Assembly (NCBI RefSeq): GCF_028369135.1
Contig: NZ_JAPWHW010000012.1
Location: forward strand, 1 to 64,000
Direction: 5' to 3'
Length of the DNA stretch: 64,000 nt
Origin: Roseovarius sp. ZX-A-9
Lineage (GTDB): Bacteria; Pseudomonadota; Alphaproteobacteria; Rhodobacterales; Rhodobacteraceae
The position numbers and the translations under genes were made by a program. This document shows, in pieces, positions 52-10,470 of the stretch (within the stretch, counting starts at the first letter, position 1; each line of letters opens with the position of its first letter). The notes under the pieces were generated by a model, which was not told the origin of the DNA, did no database searches, and saw nothing but the letters and a program-made list of their open reading frames with translations.

Positions 52-177
52 TCAGACGGCCGCCGCCGGAGCCTTACCCTTAAATTCATCACAGCGGAGG
101 TCCATGCTCGATCCGCAGGTCTCGCAATAGAGACCCTGTGGGCGTCCGTCCTTTGGAAAAATATCTACCAGATTCAT
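52..177 (-). CDS. Small zinc-ribbon-like protein, 41 aa, unknown function
   Basis: A 41-residue reading frame starting at an ATG at 177 and ending in TGA at 52-54. A GAGG lies about 7 bases before the start, a weak ribosome site. The middle holds CETC at residues 18-21 and a third cysteine at residue 29, giving a CxxC-x7-C spacing that resembles half of a zinc ribbon. It follows the 189-aa gene on the same strand after about 180 bases and may be the last gene of this island cassette seen here. I do not recognise the family. The frame is short, so coding status rests on the cysteine pattern and strand agreement. Confidence 0.45.
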   Translation of the reverse strand: MNLVDIFPKDGRPQGLYCETCGSSMDLRCDEFKGKAPAAAV

Positions 178-1247: not shown

Positions 1248-3098
1248 TCAGACCGTTGGTCTCAGAATGCTGATCTGGTGGCCTTCGATCTTTAGCCCAA
1301 ACTTCTCATCTCCGATGCTGACATCGATTCCGCCGTAGTGCAGTTGTCGGTGGTGGTTGGCACAAACCGTCATGATATTCGCTGCATGCAAGGAACCCTT
1401 TTCGAGCTTTGACACTGGCATGACGTGATGGGCTTCAACATAAGGCTCGCCACTGGGCTTTCTAAACGCGATTGGAGCCCAGCCAAGAGCCTCGCAGATT
1501 TGGCACTTGAAGCCGTTGAGTTTCTTCACCTTTGCGCCCACAGGCCCGCGTTCGATGTACTGGCTTTGCCGCTGCTTTACCTCAGGCGCGGCATCCTTGT
1601 ACTTATCCTCGATATTCTGCAGCACCTTCGCCAGATCGGGCGCATCTTGGGGTTTTGGAAGATCATCAATCCGCATGCCTAGAAGGGCTGCAACCGCCCG
1701 AAAGTCATCGCCAGAAATCGGAAAGGTGGAGCCCTGAAACCCTTCCAGTAAAAGCTTTGACACGACCGGTGCCTTTTCCTGCAGGGTCTCGATACGCAGC
1801 GGGCTATCCAGGAATGTCTTCAAGTAGCGAATACCGACTGTCGGCCAACCTGCTTCTCGTTCACTCCCCGGAGACCAGAACTCATCACTCGCGCCAGTAG
1901 CTTCGTACGGGTCAGTCAGAACCTGACAGATGGCGTAGATTCCGGGGTCAAGCTGAGGCCGTCCATCCCGTTCTGACTTGCTGCGCCTATCCTGTCCAAC
2001 TCGGATGATGGCCAGCTGACCAGGCTTGATTTTGCCACGATCAGAGCGGCGAACTCCCCATGAGGCCACCTCAATACCTCGCACTAGGAATTCATCGATC
2101 GCCCATTTTTGCGGGTTGCATACGAGCACCCAGAAAGACTCTTCCTCGGCGGGTGCAAGGCCGCTTGCCCAAGACTGGATGGCCTCCGGATGTTGTGCCG
2201 CCTCGTCCTTCCAGAGCTTCGACGATCCACCGGGCAAAGTGCGCGTCATATGCAGAACGCGTTCGAAATCGTCGTCTGACCAAACCCTGCTCTGCGCGGC
2301 TTTCTGCATATCGTCGCGCGGGAAGTCCCACCCTGTCTCACCCCAGTTCCACGCGCGCGAAAACCACTGCTTCGCCGTCATGCCCAAAGGCGGCAGGCGC
2401 AGCCGATAACACGCGAAATCAAGCCGCGATTGTATGTTGCCATGTGTGCGGCCGAACTTCGCCATGTCCCCGATGCCCATGGCCACTGCTGCCTCGGCAT
2501 TGCTGTAGGGTGTGATCGTCCCAGGCGAGGACGTCCGGCGCACCTTGAGCCAATCTAAGAGCAACTCGGTTCGGGTCTGAGTTGATGCATCTTCGTTCGT
2601 GGGGGGCTTGGCTGTGGCATTTGGCAACCCTAGCGCTCTATGGGCATACCAAAGGGCCCGCTCCGAGAACTCCTCGGGATGATCGATGATGATCTGCTCA
2701 TAGGATAGGTCAGCGCGATCCGCATCGCTCAAGACCGTGAAACCTTGGGTTGGCTTGGCCCTTGAGACTGCGGTTTCTGCGGCTCCGATCAGGCCGCGGT
2801 TTTTCAATTGCTGAAACGTTCGAGACGTAGTCTTGTGGTCTCGCTTCATGAGGCCGACGTATTCGGCAACAGCCAGGACGATCTTTTCTTCGGCTGGTGT
2901 CAGGTTGGTCAGGTCGATGCCGGTCTTGTCGGCTACTACCTGTCGCGCGAGTGACCCATAGTGCGCCTTTATCGCCGCCTCTATCTCAGGTGTCATCGCA
3001 TCGTTGTTGGCGATGTTCGTCTCAAGGTTCCGCAGCTTGTCGTAGTTTGGCGTTTTTCTAATCCGCTCAATGATTACCTGCTGGTCTATTTCTGCCAC
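1248..3098 (-). CDS. EVE-domain / HNH endonuclease fusion, probable type IV modification-dependent restriction enzyme
   Basis: A 616-residue protein. Residues 1-300 form an unrecognised helical region that may include a winged helix near 195-240. Residues about 320-430 look like an EVE (PUA-like) domain: FWVLVCNPQKW at 322-332 and later SWGVRR and PGQLAIIRVG strands are typical of the fold that reads modified bases. Residues 525-595 are an HNH nuclease with CQIC at 532-535, EAHHVMP at 555-561, N574, C579 and NHH at 581-583, so the metal and zinc ligands look intact. EVE-HNH fusions are known as predicted type IV restriction systems that cut DNA carrying modified cytosine. The gene sits at the edge of a tRNA-linked island with an unknown gene downstream. 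Modification specificity cannot be read from sequence. Confidence 0.85.
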   Translation of the reverse strand: MAEIDQQVIIERIRKTPNYDKLRNLETNIANNDAMTPEIEAAIKAHYGSLARQVVADKTGIDLTNLTPAEEKIVLAVAEYVGLMKRDHKTTSRTFQQLKNRGLIGAAETAVSRAKPTQGFTVLSDADRADLSYEQIIIDHPEEFSERALWYAHRALGLPNATAKPPTNEDASTQTRTELLLDWLKVRRTSSPGTITPYSNAEAAVAMGIGDMAKFGRTHGNIQSRLDFACYRLRLPPLGMTAKQWFSRAWNWGETGWDFPRDDMQKAAQSRVWSDDDFERVLHMTRTLPGGSSKLWKDEAAQHPEAIQSWASGLAPAEEESFWVLVCNPQKWAIDEFLVRGIEVASWGVRRSDRGKIKPGQLAIIRVGQDRRSKSERDGRPQLDPGIYAICQVLTDPYEATGASDEFWSPGSEREAGWPTVGIRYLKTFLDSPLRIETLQEKAPVVSKLLLEGFQGSTFPISGDDFRAVAALLGMRIDDLPKPQDAPDLAKVLQNIEDKYKDAAPEVKQRQSQYIERGPVGAKVKKLNGFKCQICEALGWAPIAFRKPSGEPYVEAHHVMPVSKLEKGSLHAANIMTVCANHHRQLHYGGIDVSIGDEKFGLKIEGHQISILRPTV

Positions 3099-3141: not shown

Positions 3142-3464
3142 CCGCTTGGTCAATGATGGTAATCGGTACCGGTTTCTTATTGACGCTATGGCGGGGCAGA
3201 CCGCTCTTGGTCCGCGCTCTCTGCCGACCTATTTGGACGCCTTTTGCGCGCGCCGACGGCATCATCGACCTGACCTTGGTCTAAAGGACATGGTTGGAGG
3301 CACACTTCGCAGTCGACCAGTCGCGCCCCGAGCGTTTTACCCGGTTCATCGGTGACAAGGTGCACTTTGCAAACAACATCGTGCCGCATGTTGAAGCAGA
3401 ACATTTTGCGAGCTTTGCTCCAATTTTTTTGAATGTCGAAAGCATCATTGCTGCAGGTGCTTAG
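3142..3464 (+). pseudogene. Possible decayed coding remnant with an in-frame stop
   Basis: The 420-base gap between the nuclease gene and tRNA-Thr has no intact gene. One plus-strand frame starts at ATG about 3152, runs to TAA at 3282-3284, and continues in the same frame to TAG at 3462-3464. The second part looks protein-like (for example PERFTRFIGDKVHFANNIV). This suggests a real gene inactivated by a nonsense mutation or cut off at its 5' end. I cannot name the family. Both pieces could also be chance open frames. Confidence 0.3.
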
Positions 3465-3518
3465 GCGCCAGGCACCATTGTCAATCGCTTCTGTAAGTGT
3501 CTGATTTTTAAAGAGAAG

Positions 3519-3592
3519 TGGTGCCGCTGAAGGGACTCGAACCCCCGACCCCATCATTACGAATGACGTGCTCTACCAGCTGAGCTACAGCG
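3519..3592 (-). tRNA. tRNA-Thr (anticodon CGU)
   Basis: On the minus strand the acceptor GCCGCTG pairs with CAGCGGC before CCA. The D arm GCTC...GAGC is present, the anticodon stem CGTCA/TGATG encloses the loop TTCGTAA with anticodon CGT, and the T arm contains GGTTCGAGTCC. CCA is encoded. All cloverleaf stems pair, so this copy should be functional. It borders the restriction-enzyme island on one side and a truncated tRNA copy on the other. Confidence 0.95.
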
Positions 3593-3681
3593 GCTTTCCG
3601 GACCCTACTATGGCCCTACTAGTTCTACTCCTTTGCCGCGAACTCGTTGGTTTCGCAAGTCATTTTCGCGGGGACCCGCTA

Positions 3682-3720
3682 ATTACGAATGACGTGCTCT
3701 ACCAGCTGAGCTACACCGGC
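3682..3720 (-). repeat. Truncated 5' half of a tRNA-Thr gene (att-like duplicate)
   Basis: This 39-base segment repeats the 5' half of the neighbouring tRNA-Thr up to the anticodon loop; 34 bases (3682-3715) are identical to 3556-3589. The acceptor here is GCCGGTG rather than GCCGCTG, so it would not pair fully with the intact gene's 3' end. After the anticodon loop the sequence diverges and no 3' half follows. Such a half-copy is typical of a leftover attachment site or of a partial duplication. Confidence 0.7.
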
Positions 3721-7111: not shown

Positions 7112-8092
7112 ATGACCGAGATGATGAACGCCGTGGAAATCACCCAGCCCGGCGGGCCGGAAGTTCTGCAAATGGCCAAGCGCCCGATGCCCCGGCCCCG
7201 CGCGGGCGAGGTGGTGATCCGGGTGGCCTTTGCCGGGGTGAACCGCCCCGATGCGTTGCAACGCGCGGGCCTTTATAATCCGCCGGCGGGGGCCAGCGAT
7301 CTGCCGGGGCTTGAGGCCTCGGGCGAGATTGCCGCGATCGGTGCGGGCGTTGCTGACTGGGCGGTGGGCGATGCGGTTTGCGCGCTGCTGCCCGGTGGCG
7401 GCTATGCCGAATACGTGGCAACGCCAGCAGCACATTGCCTGCCGATCCCGCAGGGCATGGCGCTGAAAGAGGCCGCCTGCCTGCCCGAGACATTCTATAC
7501 TGTCTGGTCCAACGTGTTCCAACGCGGCGGCCTGAAGGCGGGCGAGCGGTTCCTGGTGCATGGCGGCTCGTCCGGTATCGGCACCACGGCAATCCAGCTG
7601 GGTGCCGCGTTCGGCGCTCGGGTTTTCACCACCGCCGGATCGGACGAGAAATGCCAGGTGTGCCTGGATCTGGGCGCGGAACAGGCGATCAATTACCGCG
7701 CGCGAGATTTCGTCGATGTACTGCGCGCCGAGGGCGGGGCAAACCTGATCCTGGATATGGTCGGCGGCGACTACCTCCCGCGCAACGTCAAATCCCTCGC
7801 CGATGACGGGCGCCTGATGCAGATCGCGTTCCTGCAGGGCTCCAAGGTCGAACTCAACTTCGCCCATGTCATGATGCGCCGCCTGACGATCACCGGCAGC
7901 ACCCTGCGCCCGCAAAGCGACCTGGCCAAGGCCCGGATCGCCGATGAGTTGCGCACCCATGTCTGGCCGCTGCTGGAAGCGGGCCGCGTCGCCCCGGTGA
8001 TGGATAGCTGCTACCCGCTGGCCGAGGCTGCCGCCGCGCATGCGCATATGGAGGGCAGCACCCATATCGGCAAGATCGTTCTGGCGGTCTGA
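7112..8092 (+). CDS. NAD(P)H:quinone oxidoreductase, zinc-independent MDR (PIG3-like)
   Basis: A 326-residue medium-chain dehydrogenase/reductase. The nucleotide-binding motif HGGSSGIGT is at 150-158, and the N-terminal half has the GroES-like fold with AGVNRPDALQRAGLYNPP, typical of the quinone oxidoreductase/PIG3 branch. The structural and catalytic zinc cysteines of alcohol dehydrogenases are absent. It probably reduces quinones or enones with NADPH. AGGAG lies 9 bases before the ATG. It follows coq9 closely and is followed by the sialidase-like gene after only 4 bases. Confidence 0.9.
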   Translation: MTEMMNAVEITQPGGPEVLQMAKRPMPRPRAGEVVIRVAFAGVNRPDALQRAGLYNPPAGASDLPGLEASGEIAAIGAGVADWAVGDAVCALLPGGGYAEYVATPAAHCLPIPQGMALKEAACLPETFYTVWSNVFQRGGLKAGERFLVHGGSSGIGTTAIQLGAAFGARVFTTAGSDEKCQVCLDLGAEQAINYRARDFVDVLRAEGGANLILDMVGGDYLPRNVKSLADDGRLMQIAFLQGSKVELNFAHVMMRRLTITGSTLRPQSDLAKARIADELRTHVWPLLEAGRVAPVMDSCYPLAEAAAAHAHMEGSTHIGKIVLAV

Positions 8093-8096
8093 GCCT

Positions 8097-9224
8097 GTGT
8101 TGGGCGCCGTGCATGTCGCGATCCTCGGGCTGGCCGCGCTCAGCCTCTGCCTCAGCCTGTGGACCATCCGCCGTGATGTGCCGCTCGAGTGGCGCTTTGA
8201 TGTGCCGCCCCGGATCGAAGCGCAGGGCGCACCCTTTTTCGAAACGGTGCTGGACCATACCGCGCCCAGTGGTCAGGCGCATTCCCCAGCCATTGCGCTG
8301 ACCGACGATGGCTTTGATGTCCTGTGGTTTCAGGGCTCCGAAGAGGCGCGCGCCGATGTCGACATCTTCGCCGCGCGATTGACGCGCGACCCCGAGGGCT
8401 GGACCGCCGCTGCCCCTCGCCGCCATGTGACGCGCCGTGCGCTGGGCGCGGCGATGGCGCCGGGACAACTGGTGGTGACGCTGGGCAACACGATCGAGAA
8501 CGAGGCGGTGCCGGGCGGGCTCTATGCCACGACGGTGTCGGTGGGCGGCTGGGCAATGGCCTCGGTCGCGGATATCCGCATGGGCGCGGATGGCCCGCAG
8601 CACGCGCGCAAGCTGAACCTGTCGCCGCTGCTGAACCGCTCGCACCTGGTGAAATCCCCGATGGTGGCCTATGCCGACGGCTCATATGCTCTGCCCGCCT
8701 ATTTCGAGATGGGGCAGATGCACGGGCTTCTGGTGCGGACAGACGGGCAGGGCAGGGTGCGCGACACAGCCCGCATGGATGCGCGCGGGCTGCAACCGAT
8801 CCAGCCGATGGTGGTGCCGCTGGGCGCGCGCCGCGCGGTGGCATTCCTGCGCGATTTCGACACTGCCCGGGGCCGCCTGCTGATCAGTCACACCGAGGAT
8901 GGCGGCCAGAGCTGGAGCCGCGTCCGCCAGACCGACATCGCCAATCCCAGCGCGCCGGTCGCGGCCTTGTCGCTGGGCGGCGCGCGTATCCTCATCGCGA
9001 TGAACGACGATCCCGCCCGCCCCCAGGATTTGCGCCTGTCGCTCAGCGAGGATGGCGGCGCGCATTGGCGTTTGCTGCATGTCATTGCCCCCGAGGACGG
9101 CGCCCTGCGCTACCCGATGCTGCGGCAGTTGCCGGACGGCGATTTCGCGCTGACCTATTCGCAGGGCACCAAGCGCGGCATCAAGGCGCATGTGTTCAAC
9201 GCGGCATGGCTGGAGACATTATGA
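8097..9224 (+). CDS. Sialidase-like (BNR/Asp-box) protein with N-terminal membrane anchor
   Basis: About 375 residues. The start is uncertain: GTG at 8097 follows the stop of the preceding gene by 4 bases; an upstream ATG at 8040 would overlap it by 53. A hydrophobic segment near the N terminus (VAILGLAALSLCLSLW) is a signal or anchor. At least two Asp boxes are visible, SHTEDGGQSW and SLSEDGGAHW, the hallmark of sialidase-type six-bladed propellers (exo-alpha-sialidase-like family). Some members of this group are not glycosidases. Its stop overlaps the start of the next gene in ATGA, so they are translationally coupled. Confidence 0.8.
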   Translation: MLGAVHVAILGLAALSLCLSLWTIRRDVPLEWRFDVPPRIEAQGAPFFETVLDHTAPSGQAHSPAIALTDDGFDVLWFQGSEEARADVDIFAARLTRDPEGWTAAAPRRHVTRRALGAAMAPGQLVVTLGNTIENEAVPGGLYATTVSVGGWAMASVADIRMGADGPQHARKLNLSPLLNRSHLVKSPMVAYADGSYALPAYFEMGQMHGLLVRTDGQGRVRDTARMDARGLQPIQPMVVPLGARRAVAFLRDFDTARGRLLISHTEDGGQSWSRVRQTDIANPSAPVAALSLGGARILIAMNDDPARPQDLRLSLSEDGGAHWRLLHVIAPEDGALRYPMLRQLPDGDFALTYSQGTKRGIKAHVFNAAWLETL

Positions 9225-9772
9225 ACGCGCTGGTCACAAATGCCGCGCTGGCGGTGATGATCGGCTGGGTCGCCTTCGCGCTGGCGGGGCTGACGCTGAC
9301 GCCACCGCTGGCGGCGGCACTGGGCGCTGTTCTGGGCCTTGGCGCGGTGCTGCTCTTTCACGGCAGCCTTGCGCTGGGCGCGCTCATCGCATTGCTCGCC
9401 CCGTTCGGCGTGCTGCTGCCCGCGCTGGCGCTGCGCCACACGGCGGCCGCGCTGGGCCTGCCGGTACAGCCATTTTCAACAACCGAACTTCTGGTGTTAC
9501 TGATCCTCTACACCGCGTTCCTCGCCGCCGCGACAGGGGCGATCCCGGTCGATCTATACCGCTGGGGCTATGCGCCAATCCCGGTTGCGCTCATGGTGCT
9601 GGCTCTCTGCTGCTACGGCGCGCTGACCAGCAGCCTTTTCGTGCCATTGGTTGCCGTGCTGGGGCAGGCGGTCTGGGCCTTGGGCTGGAGCAGCAGCAAC
9701 TGGTTTGACGAGGTAAGCCATGCAATGCTGGTTCCCATCCTCGTCATCGTGCTGATCACGCGGGCGCTCTGA
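9221..9772 (+). CDS. Multi-pass membrane protein coupled to the sialidase-like gene
   Basis: 183 residues, almost entirely hydrophobic, with about five or six membrane segments. The start ATG overlaps the preceding stop (ATGA), which argues for coupled expression and a shared function. Near the C terminus is a polar stretch, WSSSNWFDEVSHAML, that could be a functional loop. I do not recognise the family. The pairing of a periplasmic propeller protein with a small polytopic membrane protein suggests a surface-glycan or envelope process, but that is inference. Confidence 0.75.
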   Translation: MNALVTNAALAVMIGWVAFALAGLTLTPPLAAALGAVLGLGAVLLFHGSLALGALIALLAPFGVLLPALALRHTAAALGLPVQPFSTTELLVLLILYTAFLAAATGAIPVDLYRWGYAPIPVALMVLALCCYGALTSSLFVPLVAVLGQAVWALGWSSSNWFDEVSHAMLVPILVIVLITRAL

Positions 9773-9840
9773 CACGCCCACCCCTTGGGCTTCATTTTGC
9801 CAAAAATACTCAAATTCCTTCCGCGGTTTCAGGCGTGGCT

Positions 9841-10470
9841 TCAGCGAATGGGCGCAAACAGCGCATCCTTCGCGGGGCAATCGCGCACCACGTCGCGCCC
9901 GCAAGGCACCGGGTCCAGCGTTTTTGACAGGCACAGCCGCGCCTCCTGGATGCGCCCCTGACGGCAGGTGATGGTCAGCATGTCGCGCTCCCAACCCGGG
10001 TTGGCCTTCAGAAACGCCTCTTCGACCACTGCGGCAGGCAGCTTCACCGGTTTTGTCAGCTTGCGGAAGACCTCGGGGCGGTTCACCTTGTTGTAGGCTT
10101 CGCGCGCCAATGCGTAATAGGCCGGCGCGCTCAGCCCAGAACAACGCCCGTGCTTTTTCCACTGGTACCAGGCCTGGCCGGAACTGCCCATGATATCGGC
10201 CATTGCCTGCGTCATGGACCGCGAGGGCGGGCGTTCGGTTGTTTGGCAATGTTCGGGCCAGCCACGGTGGTATTGCGGCCAGAGTCCGTGCAGAATCCAG
10301 CCGGAATCGGCGGCCTTGTGGCATTGCGCCGCGCCGCGCGCGTCGCCCTCCAGAGCGCACCAGGTGGGCGACCAGCTCATGGCCAGAACGTAGTAATCGA
10401 ACTCTCCGGGGCGGTCCTCGCCCGCGAGCGCCGCCGTGGCGTAGAACAAAAAGGCGATGAAGGCGCGCAT
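9841..10470 (-). CDS. Secreted ribonuclease T2 family enzyme
   Basis: 209 residues with a cleavable signal peptide (about residues 1-16, ending ATAALA). The two T2 active-site segments are present: CAS I as HGLWPQ at 61-66, and CAS II as WYQWKKHGRC at 101-110, supplying the catalytic histidines and the lysine. Several cysteines fit disulfides of a periplasmic enzyme. T2 RNases cut single-stranded RNA to 3'-phosphates through a cyclic intermediate. The ATG at 10470 was chosen because the signal peptide starts there. The gene diverges from trcR. Confidence 0.92.
   Translation of the reverse strand: MRAFIAFLFYATAALAGEDRPGEFDYYVLAMSWSPTWCALEGDARGAAQCHKAADSGWILHGLWPQYHRGWPEHCQTTERPPSRSMTQAMADIMGSSGQAWYQWKKHGRCSGLSAPAYYALAREAYNKVNRPEVFRKLTKPVKLPAAVVEEAFLKANPGWERDMLTITCRQGRIQEARLCLSKTLDPVPCGRDVVRDCPAKDALFAPIR

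Follow-up and report, generated by a model that had tools for sequence, protein, structure and literature searches.

We analyzed a stretch of 64,000 nucleotides from Roseovarius sp. ZX-A-9 (hereafter, the window), which starts at base 1 of contig NZ_JAPWHW010000012.1 in a genome of 4.69 Mb assembled in 62 contigs. Near its beginning lies a gene for a nuclease in which an N-terminal region (here, the N-module) precedes an EVE domain and an HNH domain. A gene of the T4SS_SepA_fam family and a short open reading frame (ORF) lie on one side of the nuclease gene, and a tRNA-Thr gene with parts of an integrated element lies on the other (Table 1). The N-module recurs in other loci, where it is joined to different readers and different HNH domains, and the window gene is flanked by the remnant of an island that splits tRNA-Thr genes. 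Loci and genomes used for comparison are cited by our labels (L and G numbers, respectively).

Table 1. Features at the start of the window (positions and strands refer to the window).
Feature	Position	Strand	Basis or remark
Repeat end, contig boundary	1..77		100% identity over 77 bp to the end of contig C36
41-amino-acid ORF	52..177	minus	Last codons inside the 77 bp shared with contig C36
T4SS_SepA_fam gene, 189 amino acids	359..928	minus	NCBIfam NF047386, 1.8e-65
EVE-HNH nuclease gene	1248..3098	minus	616 amino acids, GTG start, frame intact and free of stops
HNH nuclease region, residues 505 to 589	1332..1586	minus	PADLOC mREase_IV, 6e-8
EVE domain, residues 322 to 471	1686..2135	minus	Pfam PF01878, 4.1e-10, above cut-off
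N-module, residues 1 to 316	2151..3098	minus	Constant module, predicted all-helical, without known family
Residues 5 to 165, resembling stand-alone alphaproteobacterial proteins of ~150 amino acids	2604..3086	minus	hhalign
AAA (PtuA-like) gene remnant, last 56 codons and stop	3294..3464	plus	100% identity to residues 560 to 615 of the AAA proteins of L078 and L105
Complete tRNA-Thr(CGT), island cargo	3519..3594	minus	ARAGORN; GCCGC acceptor variant
Island left end, 87 bp	3595..3681		Homology to L078 and L105; motif TAGTAGGGCCATAGTAGGG on the minus strand
Host tRNA-Thr 5' half	3682..3720	minus	Left-end reading; GCCGG variant, ending in core ATTCGTAAT

A nuclease with exchangeable parts behind a constant module

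Judged from its sequence, the window protein very likely belongs to the modification-dependent (type IV) restriction enzymes. A first-pass annotation of this DNA had already predicted such an enzyme from an EVE-HNH fusion with an intact HNH, and both the EVE domain and the McrA-type HNH region support that prediction; the EVE domain, which had been placed at about residues 320 to 430, proved to be longer. A model of residues 313 to 616 (mean predicted local distance difference test score [pLDDT], 72.5; predicted template modeling score [pTM], 0.59) matched EVE-type proteins in Foldseek searches (E value, 4e-7), as well as the EVE-HNH enzyme VcaM4I (6yex; 2.6e-5) and YTH proteins. Structure comparison with VIA aligned the model with 1zce (Z score, 13.7; root mean square deviation [rmsd], 3.0; 138 residues) and 6yex (Z score, 11.7; rmsd, 3.3; 140 residues). 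These VIA matches span the EVE domain, and the HNH assignment rests on sequence. EcoKMcrA (6ghc) matched the HNH part at 1.5e-5, the motif residues align with those of EcoKMcrA, and H557, H558, N574, H583, and H587 are invariant across eight aligned full-length sequences, as are C532, C535, and C579. On this basis, the C terminus is classified as a McrA-type HNH nuclease.

Purifying selection acts on every part of the nuclease gene. In comparison with the nearest relative (L002), the ratio of nonsynonymous to synonymous substitution rates (dN/dS) was 0.17 both for the gene (start codon excluded) and for the N-module, which, being like the rest of the gene in this respect, is therefore kept by selection. 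The ratio was 0.02 for the HNH domain and 0.28 for the EVE domain, the fastest-changing part in this pair, as a reader might be. Between L003 and L004, the EVE domain and the N-module had the same ratio (0.12).

No domain had been recognized in the first 300 residues, and our searches agree: the N-module had no significant match in Pfam, NCBIfam, PADLOC, or PDB sequences, and PDB profile searches with the N-module, its second half, or the stand-alone family listed in Table 1 returned nothing of note. An AF2 model of the N-module, based on an alignment of eight rows, was all helical and of medium confidence (mean pLDDT, 71.9; pTM, 0.48). It had no Foldseek match at an E value of <=0.001, and its best VIA match (Z score, 6.0; rmsd, 3.1; 64 residues aligned, within residues 1 to 72) has little meaning because the model is helical. 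A likeness to RecX was discarded as too faint (NCBIfam E value of 0.02 on one stand-alone relative; VIA Z score of 3.5). With alignments of three rows in each case, hhalign linked residues 5 to 165 to the stand-alone proteins (probability, 97; E value, 9e-11) and residues 80 to 162 to a second small family (probability, 96.6). The stand-alone first-half relatives L032, L035, L040, and L044 adjoin preTA-like, amidase-like, queG-like, and oxidase-like genes, as read by eye.

The N-module is carried by ten distinct loci, i.e., the window, L002 to L007, L010 (in genome G140), L045 (an IMG/VR viral contig), and L111 (Sinorhizobium meliloti plasmid pAK76). L003 and L004 are two copies on one contig of G775, and L005 (Albibacillus kandeliae) and G092 represent one contig that was counted once. 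The identity of the relatives over the N-module ranges from 95% (L002) to 49%, and a block, GNIQSR-D--CY, is strongly conserved in six aligned N-module sequences. Matches were found in 29 of 394 genomes of the same family: the N-module is present in three (the window's genome, G092, and G140), three further genomes have partial, weak matches to it (G363, G064, and G167), and the remaining matches cover the HNH domain only. A profile of the N-module searched against 385 genomes of the class returned the window and six weak matches, all of them short frames of 121 to 194 amino acids. As for a viral origin, no phage record matched the nuclease or the N-module; the IMG/VR contig is the one viral sequence that matches the nuclease.

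What follows the N-module differs among these loci. Six of them (the window and L002 to L006) have the N-module, EVE, and HNH in that order. In L007 and L045, an additional domain (the "head," defined here and in L010 as a match to PADLOC PDLC04132) stands between the N-module and the EVE domain. L010 has the N-module and head followed by a different HNH domain, without EVE. On the conjugative plasmid pAK76 (L111, positions 8004 to 9928), the N-module and a head, which was read by eye and on which PADLOC was silent at 1e-8, are followed by the HNH domain of the EVE-HNH family in an overlapping frame, and no EVE domain was found. A tree of the ten N-modules places L010 inside the EVE group (support moderate, 83/82), which would be expected had its C terminus been exchanged. 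Both the reader (EVE, a McrA-type head, or the two together) and the HNH domain are exchangeable behind the N-module. The earlier suggestion that the linked genes could be partners of the nuclease is weak (see below).

Three relatives have further features of their own. The viral contig encodes a 752-amino-acid protein with N-module, head, EVE, and HNH (L045:8016-10274) near genes for a RecD-like helicase and a LexA-like repressor (neighbors read by eye). The protein of the same architecture in L007 (7956-10838) is continuous with a ChaC domain (PF04752). In G092, a second type IV-like HNH gene of 460 amino acids (L009:3358-4740; PADLOC HNH, 3.7e-21; mREase_IV, 1.7e-16) lies directly behind the EVE-HNH gene.

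A tRNA-Thr island remnant beside the nuclease gene

The tRNA-Thr(CGT) gene is the only tRNA gene that ARAGORN finds in the window. It stands next to half of another tRNA-Thr gene, an arrangement that is also found elsewhere. Nine left ends with the motif TAGTAGGGCCATAGTAGGG are readable whole (the window, L078, L080, L082, L085, L105, L106, L108, and L109), and all nine consist of a tRNA-Thr 5' half up to about CATTCGTAA, a short stretch with the motif, and a complete tRNA-Thr(CGT); the 5' half has some base changes in L105, L108, and L109. L107 was left out, although the motif and the complete tRNA are present, its host half being beyond the stretch. The right ends (also nine) have the 3' half only, starting with ATTCGTAATGAT. 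Neither an extra half nor the motif was detected in any of 12 control genomes by an exact-string search within 400 bp. The controls, which we picked among exact-match genomes, have one tRNA-Thr pattern and no such integrase; in control L122, which is one base off the pattern, the tRNA is whole.

The acceptor variants of the host half and the complete tRNA (GCCGG and GCCGC, respectively, in the window) are reversed in G337 (L106) and G098 (L108), which assigns the complete tRNA to the island. The remaining six left ends either show no difference at this site or have a half that is too diverged for a call. Beside integrases of the same family, G013 (L104:4480-4800) and G266 (L105:3150-3450) have a 5' half followed, after about 100 bp, by a complete tRNA-Thr(GGT); this layout lacks the exact motif, and the carried tRNA again matches the tRNA that is split. 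An attachment site in the form of a plain 52-bp repeat of the tRNA 3' end was considered and dropped after the left ends had been read: the two host halves overlap in ATTCGTAAT, the complete tRNA being cargo. The split point of the tRNA-Thr gene in these islands lies in the anticodon loop.

Positions 3292 to 3720 of the window share 96.5% identity with the G092 left end (L078) and 97.7% with that of G266 (L105). Homology to the islands stops at the tail of the AAA gene (the whole L078 gene matches PtuA models), and 136 bp later, at position 3155, homology with the sequence upstream of the nuclease gene in L002 starts. Compared with the G092 island, a gene for 255 amino acids, type I restriction-modification (RM) genes, an exonuclease-like gene, a primase gene, and the integrase gene are missing between the AAA gene and the nuclease gene. 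The integrase is absent from the window (the best match in the genome is 24% identical), and the tRNA 3' half of the island's right end was not found in the genome. The nuclease gene therefore sits in the remnant of a tRNA-Thr-splitting island; a deletion is the simplest account, and the alternative is a different assembly of the same parts. If the ancestor resembled the G092 island in its layout, the deletion would have removed the type I RM genes, the primase, and the integrase and thereby stranded the nuclease and SepA-family genes. The first-pass annotation had missed both this remnant and the sharing of the N-module with enzymes that have other readers.

In L003, L004, L005, and L010, a tyrosine integrase gene lies just upstream of the N-module gene and points away from it (in L010, with one gene for 248 amino acids in between). 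The integrase family occurs in 13 of the 394 family genomes (62 to 73% identity in 12 and, in G342, 63% for a copy that contains two stops; of 14 matches, G314 was left out at 38%), and only 2 of these 13 genomes also have an N-module gene. The island is one vehicle among others for N-module genes. The tRNA 3'-end pattern flanks four islands, of 23.8 kb in G092, 22.0 kb in G140, and 22.8 and 19.6 kb in G775, where the two islands stand in tandem (L082 to L084), each with its own integrase and EVE-HNH gene. Pairs of the pattern are 13.0 kb apart in G128 and 31.0 kb apart in G366, and both island ends were seen in G092, G140, G775, and G128.

We read the island contents by eye and checked them in part. 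Type I RM genes are present in G092 and the first G775 island (PADLOC) and, by ORF likeness to G092, in G140; none was noticed in the second G775 island when it was read by eye. The AAA gene is PtuA-like in G092 and of the AAA_21 type in the first G775 island. A Prim-Pol gene was found in G140 and the first G775 island, an archaeo-eukaryotic primase (AEP)-type gene in G092, and an exonuclease gene in G140. The phage satellite-type (P4- or PICI-like) pairing of an integrase with a Prim-Pol or AEP primase (PF00589, PF09250, and PF22548) is thus present in relatives and absent from the window. Additionally, among nine cargo proteins scanned near such integrases, those with matches were type I RM proteins (G128 and G013), a type I methylase (G197), and a DNA cytosine methylase (G042); the single proteins taken from G112, G366, and G337 had no match in the scan. 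No island end with the pattern turned up in G013, and its cargo is not proved to be inside an island. A GT4-conflict protein (L083:5897-7726; PF20706, 3.5e-76) is also cargo of an EVE-HNH island.

The SepA-family gene and the contig edge

The 189-amino-acid gene lies 319 bp downstream of the nuclease gene, on the same strand, as had been noted. It had also been called unknown, which does not hold: it matches NF047386 with 220 bits, against a cut-off of 110. The name of this family, which appears to trace to a Brucella protein, is uninformative on function here. Two of the 10 N-module loci, the window and L003, have a SepA-family gene beside them. The two genes are 77% identical and agree in order and strand relative to the nuclease gene, and this shared order looks like common descent. 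No such gene was found in the stretches examined at the other eight loci, which extend about 0.4 kb downstream in L045 and about 2.5 kb in L002. A general partnership with the nuclease was rejected on this count. Nor did the co-occurrence suggested by the first-pass annotation appear across genomes: the SepA family is present in 13 of the 394 family genomes (above the cut-off in 11), and only the window's genome has an N-module gene as well.

We read the 12 other SepA-family loci of the family genomes by eye. An integrase-like gene is nearby in three (L060, L061, and L069), restriction-type genes in two (L063 and L067), and a PLD-like gene in one (L062); the other six (L059, L064, L065, L066, L068, and L070) have no clear restriction neighbor. 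In G271 (L069), a SepA-family fragment adjoins another HNH gene together with the integrase-like gene. Six plasmid records contain the family, of which five were examined. On a Ketogulonicigenium plasmid, which also encodes Drt2, the SepA-family gene lies upstream of genes for SNF2, a methyltransferase, and a helicase; it adjoins SNF2 on a Thioclava plasmid and AbiE genes in Mesorhizobium, with an N-6 methylase gene further on (these loci are labeled L119, L115, and L116); on the Rhizobium and Paracoccus plasmids, it has no obvious defense neighbor. An alignment search of viral contigs and a protein search of phages were both empty for this family. The SepA family roams among mobile and defense regions and is not a dedicated partner of the window nuclease.

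The 41-amino-acid ORF had been described as lying at a tRNA; it is at the contig edge, and the window's only tRNA lies across the nuclease gene from it. It is probably a gene truncated by the repeat end, and tblastn searches against the loci collected gave matches only at E values above 0.5. The sole other island match of contig C36 is one 58-bp piece (81% identity). The 77-bp repeat boundary is possibly an insertion sequence; we presume a likeness to IS66-like ends, which is not a result of the analysis.

Proposed mechanism and comparison with known systems

We favor, with a probability of roughly 75%, a three-part type IV enzyme (N-module, EVE reader, and HNH nuclease) that has been stranded by deletion in a tRNA-Thr defense island. 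The gene would have arrived on an island targeting tRNA-Thr, and a later deletion would have stranded it. The EVE reader is predicted to bind modified, most likely 5-substituted, cytosine in incoming DNA and to flip the modified base; by analogy with VcaM4I, binding would relieve the autoinhibition of the HNH dimer. The McrA-type HNH domain would dimerize and cut both strands near the modified cytosine. The N-module would most likely gate the enzyme or hold the DNA, whatever reader it is combined with, a role that we favor because the N-module is constant while the reader, and even the nuclease, is exchanged. Type I RM systems usually methylate adenine. Such systems are carried by the EVE-HNH islands of G092 and the first of G775, and the sole island found to carry a cytosine methylase, that of G042, lacks an N-module gene; this distribution, over few islands, is a hint that fits cytosine reading by EVE.

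Several observations weigh against this interpretation. The Pfam match of the HNH domain (8.8e-4) falls short of that database's own cut-off, and the model has low confidence in the HNH part and does not confirm the fold. VcaM4I is not among the sequence-search matches, and its pocket residues were therefore not matched residue by residue. The case for the N-module as a gate comes down to co-occurrence, and several stand-alone relatives lie near metabolic genes (ORFs read by eye) with no hint of DNA binding. In the stretches examined, 6 of the 10 N-module loci lack an integrase of the island type. Finally, the contig does not reach the right end of the remnant, and parts of the island may persist elsewhere, though the genome has no close relative of the integrase.

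The N-module could instead be a second reader, of base modification, sequence, or DNA structure, so that cutting would need two signals. It is kept in all ten loci while the other reader changes, it includes the strongly conserved block, and L007 and L045 stack the N-module, head, and EVE. However, no convincing link of fold or sequence connects the N-module with a DNA-binding domain, given a model of medium confidence, and a structural or gating role accounts for its constancy equally well; we regard a second reader as rather unlikely. That the nuclease is a decaying passenger, left by the deletion and no longer useful, is improbable. The integrase and neighbors are missing, and the repeat end cuts the downstream ORF, but the frame is intact and dN/dS is low in comparison with L002, above all for the HNH domain; most of the divergence behind these ratios may predate the deletion, which would leave room for recent decay. 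Least probable is a nuclease directed at modified RNA, or at the host's own DNA in an abortive response, and regulated by the SepA-family gene. RNA marks are also read by folds of the EVE/YTH type, and the SepA family recurs in the same order and strand in L003 and, as a fragment, beside another HNH gene in G271, but the HNH domain is closest to the DNA-cutting McrA and eight N-module loci lack a SepA-family gene in the stretches examined.

Beyond the stranded three-part enzyme, we tentatively put forward a broader proposal, which has somewhat less than even odds. The N-module may be the constant core of an undescribed restriction-enzyme family, a chassis into which various readers and HNH domains are plugged. 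Its vehicle might be satellite-like defense islands that split tRNA-Thr (CGT or GGT) and carry a whole replacement, tying host translation to the island. If this is true, such islands could switch the DNA modification they attack by swapping one domain. A limited search of passages from the literature on EVE-HNH, SepA, tRNA islands, and type IV/type I islands yielded no description of the N-module or of whole-tRNA islands, which may have been published elsewhere.

Among characterized enzymes, VcaM4I, TspA15I, and CmeDI have an EVE domain followed by a C-terminal HNH domain, as does the window protein, and the EVE fold matches. According to the accessible passages on VcaM4I (PMC7897488), that enzyme has 309 amino acids, with EVE at residues 1 to 147 and HNH at 179 to 309; its EVE domain flips 5-methylcytosine or 5-hydroxymethylcytosine into a pocket (P24, W82, and Y130, with Q128 intercalating), and a linker helix inhibits the HNH dimer. 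Unlike this layout with an N-terminal EVE and two domains, 316 residues precede EVE in the window protein, and the HNH residues are HH, N, and H, versus S-H224, N241, and D250 in VcaM4I. The two-domain layout is not a catalytic requirement, and the window protein is a variant of the EVE-HNH enzymes. In the passages on EVE fusions of a published survey, the EVE-HNH core is listed among putative type IV enzymes, often with additional domains, and the N-module is not described (Bell et al. 2020, PMC7641849). EcoKMcrA/ScoMcrA-type enzymes have the HNH domain in common with the window protein, which has EVE in place of their head; the head is present in the relatives L007, L010, and L045 and, by eye, L111. 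We take this head to be ScoMcrA-like. The enzyme is an example of a fixed front module with exchangeable readers of modified DNA, useful for mapping which phage modifications are attacked.

Brucella SepA, in the part of the source available, has 130 amino acids, and its gene lies in a region that is transmitted horizontally (PMC4602199); in contrast, the SepA-family relatives described here are on chromosomes, islands, and plasmids of environmental bacteria. The tRNA islands collected as Islander elements share with those described here a tyrosine integrase, a split tRNA target, a displaced 3' fragment at the far end, and tandem arrays. The window has the split tRNA and the complete tRNA, and the integrase is found inside the island only in its relatives. 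Through the loss of the integrase from a tRNA-replacing island and the nuclease left behind, the window shows how a defense gene can become fixed. In the passages available, Islander islands carry a tRNA fragment in attP (PMC4383910), whereas in the tRNA-Thr islands a complete tRNA-Thr is carried next to the 5' half of the host gene, and this whole-tRNA cargo departs from the usual rule of a tRNA fragment only.

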